Shown here: positions 28,050 to 37,949 of the stretch, piece by piece
Position numbering within the stretch: the stretch's first letter is position 1
How the letters are laid out: each line of letters opens with the position of its first letter
Origin: Halorhabdus sp. BNX81
GTDB taxonomy: Archaea > Halobacteriota > Halobacteria > Halobacteriales > Haloarculaceae
Length of the DNA: 64,000 nucleotides
Direction: 5' to 3'
Assembly (NCBI RefSeq): GCF_029229925.1
Contig: NZ_CP107254.1
Coordinates: 2,046,001 to 2,110,000 of the forward strand
Made by a program: the position numbers and the translations under genes
The notes under the pieces: model-generated
Told to the model about the DNA's origin: nothing
What the model saw: only the letters and a program-made list of their open reading frames with translations
Databases searched by the model: none

Positions 28050-29630
28050 ATGGACGAACTCGAGGGGAGGCGATGTCCGAGCCGGCGACGCGTCCTGAAA
28101 ACGATCGGTGCGGGAGCAGTCGGGGCCTGCACCCTGGCTCTGGGGGGTGCCGTGACGGCCGACGATAGCCCGGACCACTATCACAATCCAGTGGGTCCGA
28201 TCGGCTTCGGGGATGTCACCGCAATCCAGGCCGACGACGGGACCTATTACGTCTACGGGACGGAGACGCCCAATGACGTCGTCCCCATCGCCACGTCCAA
28301 CGACCTCGTGAACTGGTCGTACGTCGGCGCCGCGCTACCGGATCACCCCGACTGGCGGGACGACCCCGACGCCGGCGTCTGGGCGCCCGACATCAACGAC
28401 TACAACGGCCAGTACCACCTCTACTACTCCTACTCGACCTGGGGGAGTCAGAACAATCCCGGTATCGGGCTGGCAACGTCCCCGACGCCCGACGGTCCCT
28501 TCACCGATCAGGGTCCGGTGTTCCGCGCCGAGGACCTGGGGATGACTAACTGCATCGACCCGGAGTTTCGGGTCGTCGACGGGACGCCGTACATGGTGTG
28601 GGGGAGCTGGTACGGCATCCACGGCGTCGAACTCACCGGCGACGGCCGCGATTACGTCCCGGGAACGACGTTCCACCTGGCGGGCAACATGCGCGAAGGC
28701 GGGATGATCGTCGAGGCGAACGGCTACTACTATCTGTTCTACTCCACCGGCGACTGCTGTGACGGTGCCGACAGCACCTACGCCGTCGAGGTCGGCCGGG
28801 CAGAGTCGTTTACCGGGCCGTACTACAACCAGAACGGCACCGACCTGCGGGATCTGAACGAACACCACAGCGGCGTCTCGGTGCTCGAAGGCACCGGCCA
28901 GTTCATCGGCCCCGGCCACAACACGGCGATTCAGGACGACGCCGGCGACTGGTGGATGCTCTATCACGTCGAAGCGACCAGCGACCTGGAGGAACGCCAG
29001 CTGATGATCGACCGGCTCCAGTGGGACGAGAATGACTGGCCGGTCGTCGCCTGTGACGGCACCCCGAGCAGCCAGAGCCCGATGCCGGCGAGCGGCGAAT
29101 ACCCGTGTGGCGTTGGCGGGGGCAACAGCGGTGGTTCCGACAGTGGCGACGACGGTACCGGCGGTGGCTCCGACAGCACCGACGGCCCGGACAGCGGTGC
29201 CATCGACGAGGGAACCTACCGAATCACGAACGTTAACAGCGGCAAGCTGCTGGAAGTCGCCGTCGCCGGGACAGCCGACGGGGCCAACGTTCGCCAGTAC
29301 GGCGACACCGGCCATCCCTGTCAGGACTGGGAGGTAACCCAAAACGGGGATGGCACGTATCGGATTACGAACGCACACAGCGGCAAGCTCCTGGAGGTCG
29401 CGAATGCCGACACTGCCGACGGCGCGAACGTCCGCCAGTACGGAGACACCGGTCACCCCTGTCAGGACTGGAATCCTATCGACAACGGCGACGGCACGTA
29501 CCGTCTGGAAAATGCGAACAGCGGCTCGGTGGCAGACGTCGAGAACGCATCAAGCGAGGACGGGGCAAACGTCCTGCAGTGGCCCTGGCACGGCGGCGAC
29601 AATCAGCGGTGGCGATTCAACTCGATCTGA
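28050..29630 (+). CDS. secreted GH43-family glycosidase with ricin-type lectin domain
   Basis: 526 residues. Tat signal at 1-38 ('SRRRVLKTIGAGAVGACTLA'). Residues about 45-350 are a five-bladed beta-propeller of glycoside hydrolase family 43: base Asp in 'IGFGDVTAIQADDG', Asp in 'TNCIDPEFRVVDG', acid Glu in 'NMREGGMIVEANG'. 'STGDCCDGADSTYAVEVG' matches the second GH43 in this window. Such enzymes release arabinose or xylose from plant polymers. A Ser/Gly/Asp linker (352-385) leads to a ricin-type lectin at 387-526. Co-directional with the beta-helix gene 3 bp upstream. Confidence 0.92.
   Translation: MDELEGRRCPSRRRVLKTIGAGAVGACTLALGGAVTADDSPDHYHNPVGPIGFGDVTAIQADDGTYYVYGTETPNDVVPIATSNDLVNWSYVGAALPDHPDWRDDPDAGVWAPDINDYNGQYHLYYSYSTWGSQNNPGIGLATSPTPDGPFTDQGPVFRAEDLGMTNCIDPEFRVVDGTPYMVWGSWYGIHGVELTGDGRDYVPGTTFHLAGNMREGGMIVEANGYYYLFYSTGDCCDGADSTYAVEVGRAESFTGPYYNQNGTDLRDLNEHHSGVSVLEGTGQFIGPGHNTAIQDDAGDWWMLYHVEATSDLEERQLMIDRLQWDENDWPVVACDGTPSSQSPMPASGEYPCGVGGGNSGGSDSGDDGTGGGSDSTDGPDSGAIDEGTYRITNVNSGKLLEVAVAGTADGANVRQYGDTGHPCQDWEVTQNGDGTYRITNAHSGKLLEVANADTADGANVRQYGDTGHPCQDWNPIDNGDGTYRLENANSGSVADVENASSEDGANVLQWPWHGGDNQRWRFNSI
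29212..29630 (+). repeat. duplicated lectin-module DNA, copy 2
   Basis: Second copy of the repeat at 27628-28046 (offset 1584), here forming the C-terminus of the GH43 enzyme. Both copies end exactly at their stop codons. Confidence 0.85.
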
Positions 29631-29729
29631 GGCCGCGATCCACGCTACGGACGATCCGCGGGGACTCCAGCTGAACGTCCCAGCCGCCACGAGCGGGGAT
29701 TTTTGTCCGTCGGCCCCGGACGAACAGCC

Positions 29730-30179
29730 GTGCACGAGTACGAACGCAAACAGCTTCTCGAACGTGTCGAGCGCGAGGGCGCGACCGTGGGCGCGACGAT
29801 CCCCGACACGATCGAGATCGACGGCGAATCCCTCGATCTTTCGGCGTTCGTCTTCGAAACCAGACGCCAGGAGACCATCCCGGCCGACCACCGCGAGCGG
29901 GTCGAGGCTGTCAAGACCAAACTCCGGCAGGAGCGGAATCGACGGATCGAGCGGCTCGAATCGGGTGACCTGAGTTACGAACAGGGCGAGGACCTCGCCG
30001 ATTCGATCGTGGGGATCGACCGGGCGCTGGAGGCGCTCGAATCCCTCGAATCCGAAGACATCGAGGCTGAGAAGCAAGCCGCCAGGACCGCCGATCGAAA
30101 GCGCTGGATGCGCTTCATCCAGCAGGCACTGGGCAAAGACGGCGAGTCGGGCGACCGGCGGGCGCGGGGTGGCCCATGA
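29730..30179 (+). CDS. conserved haloarchaeal protein coupled to polX
   Basis: 149 residues from GTG 29730 (MHEYERKQ). It is almost entirely helical and charged: 'LLERVEREGATVGATIPDTI', 'KLRQERNRRIERLESGDLSY', 'SIVGIDRALEALESLES'. I believe it corresponds to a small haloarchaeal DUF (DUF5788), not certain. Its stop TGA (30177-30179) overlaps the polX ATG (30176), so the two are translationally coupled, which suggests a role with PolX. Confidence 0.75.
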   Translation: MHEYERKQLLERVEREGATVGATIPDTIEIDGESLDLSAFVFETRRQETIPADHRERVEAVKTKLRQERNRRIERLESGDLSYEQGEDLADSIVGIDRALEALESLESEDIEAEKQAARTADRKRWMRFIQQALGKDGESGDRRARGGP

Positions 30180-31977: not shown

Positions 31978-33537
31978 TTACGCTTCGTCGAGGATATCCT
32001 GGGCGGACTCGATCGCGGCGCTGTTGGCTGCGAAGCAGTCTTCCAGCGCGGGGTACAGCGACTCGTAGATCTCGTAGTACTCGTCGTAGACGCGAGTGTG
32101 CTGATCGATCGGTTCGACGCTGTCGACGATGTCGACCGCCTGTTCGGTTGCGTCCGCGACGCTGTCGTAGACGTCAGCGCCGACGCCGGCCAGCAGTGCC
32201 GACCCGTAGGCCGGCCCCTCGTCGACGTTCGGCGTCAGGATCTCCGCGTCGAAGATGTCAGCCTGGATCTGCTTCCACAGCGGGCTCTTCGCGCCGCCGC
32301 CGGCCGCCTTCAGCTGCCCGGTGTCGACACCGAGGTCGTCACGGACGATCCGGAAGGAGTCTCGCAGGCCGTAGGTGACGCCCTCGAGCACCGACCGGAC
32401 AATGTGGGATTTGTCGTGGCGGGTCGAAAGCCCGAAGAAGGCACCGCGGGCGTCGGCGTCGCGGTGTGGCGTCCGCTCGCCGTTGAGGTACGGCAGGAAG
32501 ATGAGCCCTTCCGAACCAGGATCGACAGTCGCGGCTTCGTCGGTCAGCACCTCGAAGGTATCTTTGCCGAGTTGGTCGGCGACGACCTCCTCGGGCCCGC
32601 CGAGCGTCTCCGAGAACCAGCTGAACGCACCGCCGGCCGAGAGCATCACACCCATGACGTGCCACGTGTCGGGGACGGCATGACAGAACGTATGCACCCG
32701 TCCCTCGGGATCGGTCCGCTCGTCATCGGTCGCGACGAAGATGACCCCCGAGGTGCCGATCGAACCCCAGACGTCGCCGTCCCCGACGACGCCCGAGCCG
32801 ACGGCACCGGCCGCGTTGTCGCCGGCTCCCGCAACGACAGGGGTTCCAGCCGGCAGCCCCGTCCGCTCGGCAACGGCGTCCGTGATTGCGCCAGTGACTT
32901 CCGGCGACTCGTAGACCTCGGGGAGGAGGTCCCGCGAGATATCCAGTTCGTCGAGGATCTCGGGCGACCAGTCGCGCTCGCCGACGTCGAGCAGCAGCGT
33001 CCCGGAGGCGTCGCTGACGTCCGTCGCGAACGCCTCGGTCAGTTTGTACCGGATGTAGTCTTTCGGCAGCAGGATCGTCTCGGTCTGGTCGTAGACCTCG
33101 GGTTCGTGCTCCTGCACCCAGAGAATCTTCGGCGCAGTGAAGCCCTCGAACGGCGGGTTCGAGGCGAGTTCGATGATCCGATCCTCGCCGACGCGCTCCT
33201 CGATCTCGTCACACTGAGCCGACGTTCGCGTGTCGTTCCAGAGGATCGCCGGGCGCAGGACCTCACCCTCGTCGTCGAGAAATACCGAGCCGTGCATCTG
33301 GCCGGTGAGTCCCAGTGCCTCGACGTCTTCCGGATCGACGGCCGGCTCGGCCAGGACCCCGCTGATCGCGTCGATCGTTGCGTCCCACCAGTCGGCGGGG
33401 TCCTGCTCGGCCCATCCCACTTCGGGGTGATGGAGCGGGTACTCCTCGGTCGCCGTCGCGACGACCTCGCCCTCGGCATCGGTGACGAGTACCTTCACGC
33501 CGGACGTCCCCAGATCGAGTCCCATCAAAAGGCTCAT
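31978..33537 (-). CDS. xylB: xylulokinase
   Basis: 519 residues, FGGY kinase family. It phosphorylates D-xylulose to xylulose 5-phosphate. 'MGLDLGTSGVKVLVTD' is the N-terminal phosphate-binding loop and 'GLTGQMHGSVFLDDEG' is the xylulokinase-specific region. The catalytic Asp is in 'VVAGAGDNAAGAVGSG' and the C-terminal ATP motif is 'KAAGGGAKSPLWKQIQADI'. Xylose isomerase is three kilobases away on the other strand, giving the bacterial-type XylA/XylB route. The promoter region upstream contains a TATA-like CATTTAA near 33570 and the inverted repeat at 33582-33593. Confidence 0.94.
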   Translation of the reverse strand: MSLLMGLDLGTSGVKVLVTDAEGEVVATATEEYPLHHPEVGWAEQDPADWWDATIDAISGVLAEPAVDPEDVEALGLTGQMHGSVFLDDEGEVLRPAILWNDTRTSAQCDEIEERVGEDRIIELASNPPFEGFTAPKILWVQEHEPEVYDQTETILLPKDYIRYKLTEAFATDVSDASGTLLLDVGERDWSPEILDELDISRDLLPEVYESPEVTGAITDAVAERTGLPAGTPVVAGAGDNAAGAVGSGVVGDGDVWGSIGTSGVIFVATDDERTDPEGRVHTFCHAVPDTWHVMGVMLSAGGAFSWFSETLGGPEEVVADQLGKDTFEVLTDEAATVDPGSEGLIFLPYLNGERTPHRDADARGAFFGLSTRHDKSHIVRSVLEGVTYGLRDSFRIVRDDLGVDTGQLKAAGGGAKSPLWKQIQADIFDAEILTPNVDEGPAYGSALLAGVGADVYDSVADATEQAVDIVDSVEPIDQHTRVYDEYYEIYESLYPALEDCFAANSAAIESAQDILDEA

Positions 33538-33717: not shown

Positions 33718-35694
33718 TTACTCCCCTGGACCTTCCCCGTCACGTGGACCGGTCGGGAAGTAGAACTCGTGTTCGGACTGGGTTTCGAAGCGATCGAGCA
33801 CGTCGTGCAGCGGCCCGGCGTAGCGGATGAGGTCATCGGCCCGCTGTGAGACCTCGTTGAGTTCCGCGGCCTGTTCCTCGGCCGCACCCGCGACGCTCTC
33901 GGACTCCTCGAGAGTCTCTTCCGCGAGATCGACGACCTCGGCCACCGTCCGAGCGACTTCGTCGATCTGGGCAAGTTGGTCTTCGAAGTCGATGTCCGGG
34001 TGTTCGGCGGCGAACTCGTCCAGCCGCGCGGAGATAGCGTCGATCTCCTTGGAGATCTCCTGGAGCCGTTCCTGCTGTTCGTAGGCGTCGTCGGAGATCC
34101 GCTGGACCGAGTCGGCCACTTGCTCTGAGGCTTCCTGGACGCTGTCCGAGGAGTTGAGGACGATCTCACCGGCGTCTTCGACCTCATCGGCGAAGCTCTT
34201 GAGCTGGCCCGTGGTCTTTTCGAGTTCGTCGATCATCTCGTTGAACTCGCTGGCGATCCGGTCCATCGCCTCGTTCTCCCCGTCGATCTCCATCCGAGCG
34301 GTGAGGTCGCCGGCCGCACACTGTTCCATGGTCTGGCTGTACTCCTCGGCTTTCTCCTGGAGATACTCGTTCATCTCCATGGCCTCGGCACGGGAGACCT
34401 CGGCCTCCTTGCGGGCCTGTTCGGCCTCGTTGATCTGCTCGCGGAGCGCATCCCGCATGTTGTCGAAGCCATCGTACAGCCGGCCGATCGAGTCGATCCG
34501 CGTCGAGTGGATCGGGACGTCGAGGTTCCCCTCCTCGATCTCCTCGGCCTTCCGCCGGAGGCGATCGACGGAACTCGCCGTCGAGTAGCCGAGGATCGCC
34601 CCAACGCCACCGATCATGATCGCTGCCAGGATAGTGACGATCTGACCCCACCGGGAGATGGTCTGGACGAACCCGAACAGATCGCTGGTCGGGGCGTGTG
34701 TGACGATCGTCCACGGCGGGTCGATCACCTCACCGTCGACGGAAGCGTACCCGACAGCGTACGGTTCATCCAGCACGGCCGGATCGTTCTCGATGATCCG
34801 GACGCCACTGGTTCGCTGCTGGCCGTCGGCGGGTGCAGCCATCGCTCGCCGGATCGTCTCCTCGTTGCCGTAGGTCCCGAGAATGTTCGACTCCACACCG
34901 TCCGCATTGGTGCGGGTGTCAGCTTGCACGGCATTGTCGACGTTGACTACCTGCGAGAAGTGGGTGCTGGCGTCGCCTTCGGTCAGCCCCTGGCTCTCGA
35001 TCGCCTTGGCCAGGTCCCCAACGCGGAACTCCATGTAGAGGTATCGGTTGGCGACGTTGTGTTCGACGCGTTTGATGAAGCCGACGACCGGCTCCCCCGA
35101 GACATCATACACTTCGGTCATCCGGACCTGCGGATAGTCCTCGATACCCACCTGAAGATTACTCAGCCATGGATGGGTTGTCTCCGCGACCGGGATGGTC
35201 TGTGACTGGAGCAGTCCCCGGTTGACTTCCTCGATGGTGTCACCCGTATACTGCATGGCGAGGATCTCGGTGCCGTTGTCCGGCGAGAGGAGGTAGATCG
35301 CGTGTGACCCGTTGGACACCTCCGAGAACAACGGCCGGGCCAGCTGTCGATTGAGCGTCCCGGTATCGGACTTATCAGCCCCCAATCCGTCGTTGGTCGA
35401 GGCGAGATCGACTGTCACAGCGTTGCGTTGAATCCATTGCTCGACGATCGACGCCTGCTGTGAGGCGAGACGCTCGTACTCCGCCCGCGTGTCGTCTTCG
35501 ACTTGATCAGCCAATGCCCCCGTTGCCGTGAACCCGATTCCCGCAAGAATCAGGCCCATGATGACGAGAACCAGGGCAAATTTGAGTGCGAACCGCTTCC
35601 TGATGACGTCAGGAACGACCGTCGCCAGGATGCGGCCTATCGCACCACTCTCCGGTTCGTCACCGTTTGCTTCGATGTCTGGATCGTTACTCAT
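33718..35694 (-). CDS. transducer-like membrane protein (Cache-HAMP) lacking the signalling tip
   Basis: 658 residues. Membrane helix 1 is about 34-57 ('FALVLVIMGLILAGIGF'), then an extracellular Cache-type sensor (about 60-340; 'IYLLSPDNGTEILAMQYTGD', 'YAVGYASVDGEVIDPPWTIV'), membrane helix 2 about 343-365, HAMP domains, and coiled coil. The coiled coil has normal transducer ends ('DDAYEQQERLQEISKEIDAI' and 'AAEEQAAELNEVSQRADDL'). The hairpin tip that binds CheA/CheW in all methyl-accepting proteins (E-I-A-x-Q-T-N-x-L-A-L-N) is absent. It lies between xylB and xylA, so a pentose or other sugar sensor is conceivable. Confidence 0.85.
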   Translation of the reverse strand: MSNDPDIEANGDEPESGAIGRILATVVPDVIRKRFALKFALVLVIMGLILAGIGFTATGALADQVEDDTRAEYERLASQQASIVEQWIQRNAVTVDLASTNDGLGADKSDTGTLNRQLARPLFSEVSNGSHAIYLLSPDNGTEILAMQYTGDTIEEVNRGLLQSQTIPVAETTHPWLSNLQVGIEDYPQVRMTEVYDVSGEPVVGFIKRVEHNVANRYLYMEFRVGDLAKAIESQGLTEGDASTHFSQVVNVDNAVQADTRTNADGVESNILGTYGNEETIRRAMAAPADGQQRTSGVRIIENDPAVLDEPYAVGYASVDGEVIDPPWTIVTHAPTSDLFGFVQTISRWGQIVTILAAIMIGGVGAILGYSTASSVDRLRRKAEEIEEGNLDVPIHSTRIDSIGRLYDGFDNMRDALREQINEAEQARKEAEVSRAEAMEMNEYLQEKAEEYSQTMEQCAAGDLTARMEIDGENEAMDRIASEFNEMIDELEKTTGQLKSFADEVEDAGEIVLNSSDSVQEASEQVADSVQRISDDAYEQQERLQEISKEIDAISARLDEFAAEHPDIDFEDQLAQIDEVARTVAEVVDLAEETLEESESVAGAAEEQAAELNEVSQRADDLIRYAGPLHDVLDRFETQSEHEFYFPTGPRDGEGPGE

Positions 35695-36044: not shown

Positions 36045-37361
36045 ATGAGCGAATACTTCCCAGAAATCGACGAGATTACGTACGAGGGACCGGGCTCGGA
36101 AGACCCGCTTTCCTTTAGCTATTATGAACCGGATCGAGAAATCGGCGAAAAAACGATGGCGGAGCACCTGCGATTCTCGGTGGCCTACTGGCACACCCTC
36201 ACCGAGGACGGGTCCGACCCGTTCGGCACGGGGACGATGCAGCGGCCGTGGGACGATATCGACGATCCCATGGAGAAGGCCCACGCCCGGGTCGACGCCG
36301 CCTTCGAGTTCTTCGAGAAACTCGGCGTCCCGTACTTCTGTTTCCACGATCGAGACATCGCCCCCAAGGGCGAGGATCTGGCCGAGTCCAACCAAAATCT
36401 CGACGAGATCGTCGATCACGTCGAGGAGAAGATGGACGAGACGGGGGTCGAGCTGCTGTGGGGCACCTCCCAGCTGTTCATGGAGGAGAAGTTCATGCAC
36501 GGCGCGGCGACCTCACCGAACCCCGATGTCTTCGCCCACGCGGCCGGGCAGGTCAAGAAAGCGATGGAAGTCACCGAGCGCCTCGGCGGCGAGAACTTCG
36601 TCTTCTGGGGCGGCCGGGAGGGCTACAAGACGCTGCTGAACAGCGACATGGGCCGGGAACTGGACAACATGGGCCGGTTCTTCCGGATGGCGGCCGACTA
36701 CGCCGACGACATCGGCTTCGACGGCCAGTTGCTCATCGAGCCCAAACCCAAGGAACCCACGAAACACCAGTACGACTTCGACGCCGCGAACGTCATGGCG
36801 TTCCTGCGTGAGCACGGCCTGGAGGACCGCTTCAGCCTCAATCTGGAAGCCAACCACGCGACCCTCGCCGGCCACACCTTCCGGCACGAACTCCAGTACG
36901 CCCGGATCAACGACGCGCTGGGCAGCGTCGACGCCAACCAGGGCGACAAACTCATCGGCTGGGACACCGACGAGTTCCCGACCGACGTCTACATGACGAC
37001 CCTGGCGATGTACGAGATTCTGGAGAACGACGGGCTCGCGCCAGGCGGCCTCAACTTCGACGCGAAGGTCCGACGCGAATCCTTCGAGCCGGTCGACCTC
37101 TTCTATGGCCACGTCGTCGGCATGGACACCTTCGCCCGCGGGCTCGAAGTCGCCCACGAACTCCGCGAGGACGGCGTCTTCGAGGAGGTCATCGACGACC
37201 GGTACGGCTACGACGAAGGAATCGGTGCCGAGATCGCCGCCGAGTCGACGGACTTCGAAGCGCTCGCCGACTACGCGCTGGACAACGACGGTATCGAACT
37301 GGAGTCGGGTCGTCAGGAGAAACTCAAGTCGGTCCTCAACCGCTACATCCTCGAATCCTGA
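36045..37361 (+). CDS. xylA: xylose isomerase
   Basis: 438 residues, class II bacterial size. It converts D-xylose to D-xylulose. Signatures: '[17 protein letters not shown]', '[15 protein letters not shown]' with catalytic His, '[18 protein letters not shown]', '[20 protein letters not shown]' with Glu/Lys ligands, '[17 protein letters not shown]', '[20 protein letters not shown]' and '[20 protein letters not shown]'. Most characterised haloarchaea oxidise xylose instead, so this gene and xylB were probably acquired from bacteria by a Halorhabdus-like ancestor. Start ATG 36045. Confidence 0.96.
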
Positions 37362-37490
37362 GCGGGCGCGGGCAAACCACGCGGTTTTCGCCCGAGCGGA
37401 GCGGTCGGTCGTCGACCGAAGGGGCTTCGGTTCGCCGAGACAGATGCGGCGAGGGCAACACTTTAGTGTATTTTGTGCGATGACGCATAT

Positions 37491-37949
37491 ATGGAACGAG
37501 CACTTGTCGTCGTCGACGACACTGAAGCGAGTGACGAGTTACTCCGGAAAGCGGGCGAGATCGCGGAAGGGGTCGGTGCGAAACTGTACCTCTTTGGGAC
37601 GCTTGACCCCGAGGAGTTCGACGAGGCCCGGGAAACCCTCGATACGATCGGCGAGGTCGAGAACACGTCCTACACCGATTCGGACATCCTGAAAACAGTT
37701 CACAACTCGCTGAACGAAACCATCGAGGCGGTCTTCGATGGGACCGAGTTTGAATACGAGACCGTCGGGGCGGTCGCCGGCGAAGGCGACCGCGCCTCGA
37801 AAGTCATCGAGGCCGCCGAGAAGTTCGAATGTGAGCACATCTTCCTGTCGGGCCGAAAGCGCTCGCCGACCGGGAAGGCGCTGTTCGGTGATACGGTCCA
37901 GTCCGTGCTGCTCGACTTCGACGGCGAAGTCACCGTCAACCTCCAGTAA
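37491..37949 (+). CDS. universal stress protein (UspA family)
   Basis: 152 residues. 'RALVVVDDTEASDELLRKAG' gives the first strand and Asp. The nucleotide-binding signature near the end, 'LSGRKRSPTGKALFGDTVQS', follows the G-x2-G-x9-G-S/T type loop with conservative changes. 'GEGDRASKVIEAAEKFECEH' precedes it. The insert 'NTSYTDSDILKTVHNSLNET' is longer than in typical UspA. ATG 37491 is favoured by an AT-rich promoter (about 37461-37473). Located 130 bp after xylA, same strand; a role in pentose growth is not demonstrated. Confidence 0.87.
   Translation: MERALVVVDDTEASDELLRKAGEIAEGVGAKLYLFGTLDPEEFDEARETLDTIGEVENTSYTDSDILKTVHNSLNETIEAVFDGTEFEYETVGAVAGEGDRASKVIEAAEKFECEHIFLSGRKRSPTGKALFGDTVQSVLLDFDGEVTVNLQ

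Follow-up and report, generated by a model that had tools for sequence, protein, structure and literature searches.

The window, a stretch of 64,000 nucleotides from the archaeon Halorhabdus sp. BNX81, carries a transducer gene between the xylose genes xylB and xylA (Table 1). The host genome is a single contig of 2.83 Mb. The transducer gene and xylB share a strand and are 180 bp apart; xylA is divergent from the transducer gene across 350 bp. The same locus has been described in Halorhabdus utahensis, where Huta_2444 and Huta_2445 lie between xylA and xylB and are named as putative methyl-accepting chemotaxis proteins (PMC8551123). H. utahensis has two transducer genes at the xyl locus and the window has one; in its passages on these genes, that paper does not mention a missing tip. 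The same source gives xylA and xylB of H. utahensis as constitutive, with transcript sizes that fit single genes (PMC8551123), leaving coregulation of the tip-less gene with the xyl genes unsupported. No recognizable remnant of a second tandem tip-less copy was found in the window, where the best match had an E value of only 0.82. A binding lipoprotein gene, present beside some other members of the family, is absent next to the tip-less gene of the window.

Several other genes of the locus deserve mention. A GH43 glycosidase, encoded four genes from the tip-less gene, has ricin-type lectin repeats and a leader that by eye resembles a TAT signal. The gene for a DUF5788 protein overlaps by 4 bp the start of a gene for a PolX-type polymerase with a PHP domain, and this pair is retained in other Halorhabdus regions. 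The universal stress protein gene directly behind xylA is found near tip-less genes in other Halorhabdus regions as well.

Table 1. Genes of the xylose locus and segments of the tip-less transducer, in window coordinates
Feature	Position	Strand	Basis or remark
GH43 glycosidase	28050-29630	+	
DUF5788 protein	29703-30179	+	
xylB, xylulokinase	31978..33537	-	NCBIfam TIGR01312; neighbor of tip-less gene
Tip-less transducer gene, 658 aa	33718..35694	-	Single ORF, ATG start, no internal stop
Conserved C-terminal motif, residues 641-650 (E-H-E-F-Y-F in window protein)	33745..33774	-	Alignments
C-side coil, residues 571-634	33793..33984	-	Alignment and AlphaFold2 model
Most conserved segment, residues 601-612, former second methylation helix (E606, E607, Q608, family-specific E611)	33859..33894	-	Conservation profile
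Turn in place of tip, residues 565-570	33985..34002	-	Model; flanking 561-590 poorly conserved
N-side coil of shortened hairpin, residues 501-564	34003..34194	-	Alignment and AlphaFold2 model
HAMP 2, residues 453-500 (approximate)	34195..34338	-	Second Pfam HAMP stretch and conservation
HAMP 1, residues 373-425 (approximate; Pfam 370-419)	34420..34578	-	Pfam
Second membrane helix, residues 346-372 (approximate)	34579..34659	-	Helix 336-387 in model and sequence by eye
Extracytoplasmic double-Cache sensor, residues 60-345	34660..35517	-	AlphaFold2 model and Foldseek; borders approximate
xylA, xylose isomerase	36045..37361	+	NCBIfam TIGR02630; neighbor of tip-less gene
Universal stress protein	37473-37949	+	

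Architecture of the tip-less transducer

Chemoreceptors are thought to act by controlling CheA through one conserved tip. The initial annotation of the locus described a protein with a Cache-like sensor, two membrane helices, HAMP, and normal coiled-coil ends joined directly where the tip should be. A Pfam scan finds two HAMP stretches in the window protein, with nothing else above the cutoff and no match to the MCPsignal family PF00015; the NCBIfam matches all fall far under their cutoffs. A search of the window's own genome with PF00015 recovers ordinary receptors elsewhere and none at the tip-less gene. Both membrane helices are seen by eye and in the AlphaFold2 model. The assignment of the sensor can be refined from Cache-like to double Cache by its fold, which Foldseek groups with the double-Cache domains of the chemoreceptors PctA, PctB, PctC, Mlp24, and TlpC. 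When 43 family members were scanned with Pfam, HAMP was found in all 43, dCache_1 in 14, and MCPsignal PF00015 in 3 (best E 0.0063).

When aligned with four ordinary receptors encoded in its own genome, the window protein lacks ~160 residues around the tip, bearing out the proposed loss of the tip. Related genera have this deletion too: it is present in 38/38 aligned tip-less sequences, that of the window included. By hand count the loss is asymmetric, with ~74 residues gone before the tip glutamate and ~90 after it. The N-side coil is retained as far as the first methylation helix, and the C-side cut falls before the second. The AlphaFold2 model was built from 43 sequences (the window protein and 42 loci) and has a mean pLDDT of 77.8 and a pTM of 0.53; in it, a long helix (473–564) and a return helix (571–634) are closed by a six-residue turn, with pLDDT mostly 81–88 across the hairpin block. 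The window protein is thus predicted to end in a short closed hairpin: the flanking coils are kept, as first described, and it is only their strictly direct joining that gives way to a short turn. Since the tip is absent, ordinary coupling to CheA and CheW is not possible, and this part of the initial annotation holds.

Conservation is distributed unevenly along the protein. Among 43 members, mean pairwise identity reaches 0.69 for the HAMP linker and 0.67 for both HAMP 2 and the C coil, compared with 0.55 for the N coil, 0.32 for the surroundings of the turn, and 0.26 for the sensor. The best-conserved stretch of 12 residues, 601–612, scores 0.96 in tip-less proteins compared with 0.80 in ordinary receptors; residues 523–540, which lie opposite, are also highly conserved, and the score falls to ~0.5 across 547–594. 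Within the best-conserved segment, E606 and E607 are each found in 44/46 tip-less proteins and Q608 in 46/46. Methylation sites were scored with the strict ten-residue consensus, which is present in 40/41 ordinary receptors and in 0/43 tip-less members. The segment on the second helix fails this consensus because residue 611, at the tenth position, is an invariant glutamate specific to the family. The modification surface is thus kept in an altered form. Among the aligned proteins, only the tip-less ones conserve the C-terminal motif.

A haloarchaeal family beside sugar genes

Homologues are found in 7/7 genomes of the genus Halorhabdus and in 69/146 genomes of the window's family, the latter counted as whole-protein matches at E <= 1e-60, a criterion in which absence of the tip in each match has no part. 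An order-wide profile search of 392 genomes gave full-span matches only in the window's family, among the matches listed (E to ~1e-80), and those listed from other families of the order were longer ordinary receptors matching mainly across the HAMP and N-side part. A scan of 84,980 species required exact peptide patterns, and its counts are lower bounds; it recovered at least 54 loci, 52 of the tip-less type and all of these haloarchaeal, with the remaining two being an ordinary Halorhabdus receptor (L172) and a distant Alkalibacillus protein (L173). Alignment A3 took in 42 of the 52 tip-less-type loci, and the start codons of some homologues are guesses.

The window protein shares common descent with the haloarchaeal transducers. 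A tree was built on 297 columns from tip-less proteins (46) and tip-bearing ones (25), with L004 chosen by the analyst as outgroup. In it, the tip-less proteins form one clade on a long stem, with support of 0.81, which is good but not decisive. Comparison of the window gene with its two orthologues gives dN/dS values of 0.04–0.09 in the cytoplasmic half and 0.12–0.14 in the sensor, and the cytoplasmic half is under strong purifying selection. Two other Halorhabdus genomes have tandem tip-less pairs at the xylA–xylB locus (L080 and L081), where the window has a single copy. Within each of the two pairs, both of which were examined, the sensors are 47–48% identical and the cytoplasmic halves 94–96%. 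The near identity of the cytoplasmic halves, together with a low synonymous distance (0.21–0.30), suggests that gene conversion keeps the output half uniform. Diverged sensors on near-identical cytoplasmic halves indicate that different sensors feed one kept output module.

The surroundings of the family were examined in 41 regions (the window and 40 others), several of which are orthologous and so not independent. Genes in the regions were called with a custom codon score and named by eye, with Pfam, or with NCBIfam. The neighbor sets omit four near-duplicates (L085, L087, L090, and L118), and the by-eye reading excludes L093, L100, and L104, the central gene of L100 being a putative tip-less transducer. 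Frequent neighbors are MalK-type ABC operons with IclR regulators, KDG kinase together with pyruvate kinase and ROK glucokinase, KDPG aldolase, and, in Halorhabdus, xylA with xylB. In several regions, a binding lipoprotein gene overlaps the tip-less gene or lies 2 bp off it. For tested examples, NCBIfam confirms KDG kinase (518 bits, cutoff 440), xylose isomerase, xylulokinase, and KDPG aldolase. A KDG kinase over the cutoff coexists with a tip-less gene in 55 genomes; the two lie <= 6 kb apart in 38 of these, which span five genera.

Pfam tallies cover 131/145 near genes (two on each side) and 140/142 distant genes (five or more places away). Near genes include PfkB (9), SBP_bac_1 (7), pyruvate kinase (6), Peripla_BP_6 (6), the MalK-type OB domain (6), IclR HTH (5), and FGGY_N (4). 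Distant genes include FGGY_C (8), FGGY_N (6), ABC_tran (4), and SBP_bac_1 (4), so sugar genes occur in the distal set too. The 25 families listed for that set (down to 2 members) do not include PfkB, pyruvate kinase, Peripla_BP_6, or IclR. No sugar link is visible in seven regions (L083, L085, L092, L099, L101, L111, and L112). Ordinary receptor genes lie inside regions L083, L085, L099, L115, and L122, and no other chemotaxis genes were recognized by eye among the inspected neighbors. In L115 (8183–12334, from a Halovenus-like genome), a full-length relative that has the tip comes immediately after the tip-less gene.

These transducers form a monophyletic haloarchaeal family that has lost the CheA/CheW-binding tip, has kept the sensor, the HAMPs, and a short hairpin, and recurs beside genes for sugar uptake and breakdown. 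The sugar link first proposed from the window is general to the family and extends beyond xylose. The family has in common with ordinary Htr and methyl-accepting chemotaxis proteins the sensor, membrane helices, HAMPs, coil flanks, and ancestry; unlike them, it has no tip and no strict methylation consensus, and its conservation peaks at 601–612 with a trough at the site of the tip. It is a chemoreceptor-derived family that fails two defining features of methyl-accepting chemotaxis proteins, the tip and the methylation consensus.

Possible outputs without the tip

Loss of the tip in proteins that are nevertheless under strong selection means that they probably signal in some other way. CheA (PF02895) is found in 98/146 genomes of the window's family, and the tip-less gene occurs almost only alongside it: 66 of the 69 carrier genomes have CheA, compared with 32 of the 77 genomes without the tip-less gene (Fisher p 4e-13, uncorrected for descent). 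The three carriers that lack CheA are assemblies that are 89, 71, and 88% complete. At the level of genera the contrast is weak, with CheA in 10/10 genera that have members and in 8/12 that do not, and the association is confounded by phylogeny. Twelve genomes have a KDG kinase over the cutoff but no CheA, and only one of these, an incomplete assembly, has the tip-less gene.

A naturally truncated transducer is already known in the haloarchaea. HtrM, the transducer of sensory rhodopsin SRM in Haloarcula marismortui, is described as being without the tip and the methyl-accepting domain, and an SRM–HtrM fusion expressed in H. salinarum lowered both phototaxis responses, for which the authors propose competition for CheB or CheR (PMC6450946). 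As characterized in that account, HtrM resembles the tip-less family in being a haloarchaeal transducer with membrane helices and a HAMP and without the CheA/CheW-binding tip, and it differs in its single HAMP, its pairing with a rhodopsin, and its lack of a methyl-accepting region (PMC6450946). The tip-less family, by comparison, has two HAMPs, retains both coil flanks, carries a double-Cache sensor, and has sugar genes as neighbors.

Modulation of chemotaxis is favored because members track CheA and because HtrM offers a precedent. The explanation we tentatively prefer is that the protein is a sugar-linked sensor, uncoupled from CheA, that tunes taxis through the surface of its old methylation helices. 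A sugar-related ligand would be sensed by the double Cache directly or via a neighboring binding lipoprotein, and the tip-less transducer itself would not drive CheA. It would instead offer chemotaxis proteins a surface that lies at the former methylation helices (522–540 and 601–612) and depends on ligand; the receptor-modifying enzymes CheR, CheB, or CheD would be the most plausible partners. While sugar is present, the response of tip-bearing receptors would be tuned or attenuated, as truncated HtrM does for phototaxis. Given that the strict methylation consensus is missing, modification of the tip-less protein by CheR or CheB is not assured.

Sensing through a lipoprotein would recall BasB/BasT and CosB/CosT of Halobacterium salinarum, where the binding lipoproteins are reported to copurify with the transducers (PMC3579733). 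Some tip-less members similarly adjoin a binding lipoprotein gene (Peripla_BP_6 by Pfam), and the window gene does not. BasT and CosT carry the tip, unlike the tip-less family.

A wider formulation, whose chances fall just short of even, leaves the partner less constrained. The receptor family would predate the divergence of several haloarchaeal genera and would have been uncoupled from the chemotaxis kinase in one step, with the methylation-helix surface serving as its output. Sugar sensing would then enter the chemotaxis network or sugar metabolism via receptor-modification enzymes or another partner, not CheA, as a kinase-independent chemoreceptor output. No description of tip-less transducers in sugar loci was found in the open-licence literature searched. 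The family amounts to a natural experiment in which the tip has been lost, the rest is strongly selected, and many sensors sit on one shared output module. It makes testable whether the methylation-helix region signals alone and how haloarchaea couple sugar use to behavior. Annotations of methyl-accepting chemotaxis proteins in sugar loci may refer to proteins that are neither methyl-accepting nor CheA-coupled.

An output to metabolism or transport is only slightly less likely than modulation of chemotaxis. The receptor would have left chemotaxis, and the part running from the HAMPs to the hairpin, along with the C-terminal motif, would bind a transporter, a sugar kinase, or a regulator and adjust sugar uptake or breakdown. 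The proximity of KDG kinase in five genera agrees with such an output, as do neighbors that include MalK-type ABC operons with IclR, pyruvate kinase, KDPG aldolase, xylA and xylB, and binding lipoproteins; so do the loss of both the tip and the strict methylation pattern and a C-terminal motif confined to tip-less proteins. However, no single gene neighbors every member, and any dedicated partner would thus have to be encoded elsewhere, and the farther genes of the same regions are partly sugar genes too. The constitutive xylA and xylB of H. utahensis (PMC8551123) also sit poorly with this output, as does the near confinement of members to genomes with CheA. The initial annotation had suggested a sugar-sensing receptor with another output; co-occurrence with CheA and conservation of the former methylation segment, the best-conserved part of the protein, point back toward chemotaxis.

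The possibility that the protein is a dominant-negative or mixed-dimer partner, also raised at the outset, is improbable. It would pair with a tip-bearing chain via the membrane helices, HAMPs, and coils, and spoil or bias that receptor. Retention of the coil flanks and HAMPs is compatible with such pairing, as is the co-occurrence with CheA, and the L115 tandem of a tip-less gene and a full-length relative supports it directly, but this is the only such tandem noticed, and direct support goes no further. The coil lengths differ by ~74 and ~90 residues on the two sides, which would make a poor fit in a mixed four-helix bundle, and the trimer contacts that receptor tips make are absent along with the tip.

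That the gene is a nonsignaling relic, a recent deletion or pseudogene, or an assembly error is suggested only by loss of the defining domain and can be dismissed given the intact ORF, the identical deletion in every aligned tip-less homologue across the family, their grouping in one clade, and the low dN/dS of the cytoplasmic half.

A split receptor, with a separate soluble tip protein as obligate partner, was also considered and rejected: among the 20 listed genomes that have no soluble match, 15 carry the tip-less gene. Soluble receptors of ~300 residues that have the tip intact and are without a sensor, membrane helix, or HAMP do exist in this group. One of them (L180) is encoded in the window's own genome at contig positions 425972–426790 on the + strand, and this type is found in 55/146 family genomes at E <= 1e-80, with the last seven matches being longer proteins. 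A second class of soluble receptors is represented by L175, L179, L188, L189, L191, L198, and L203.
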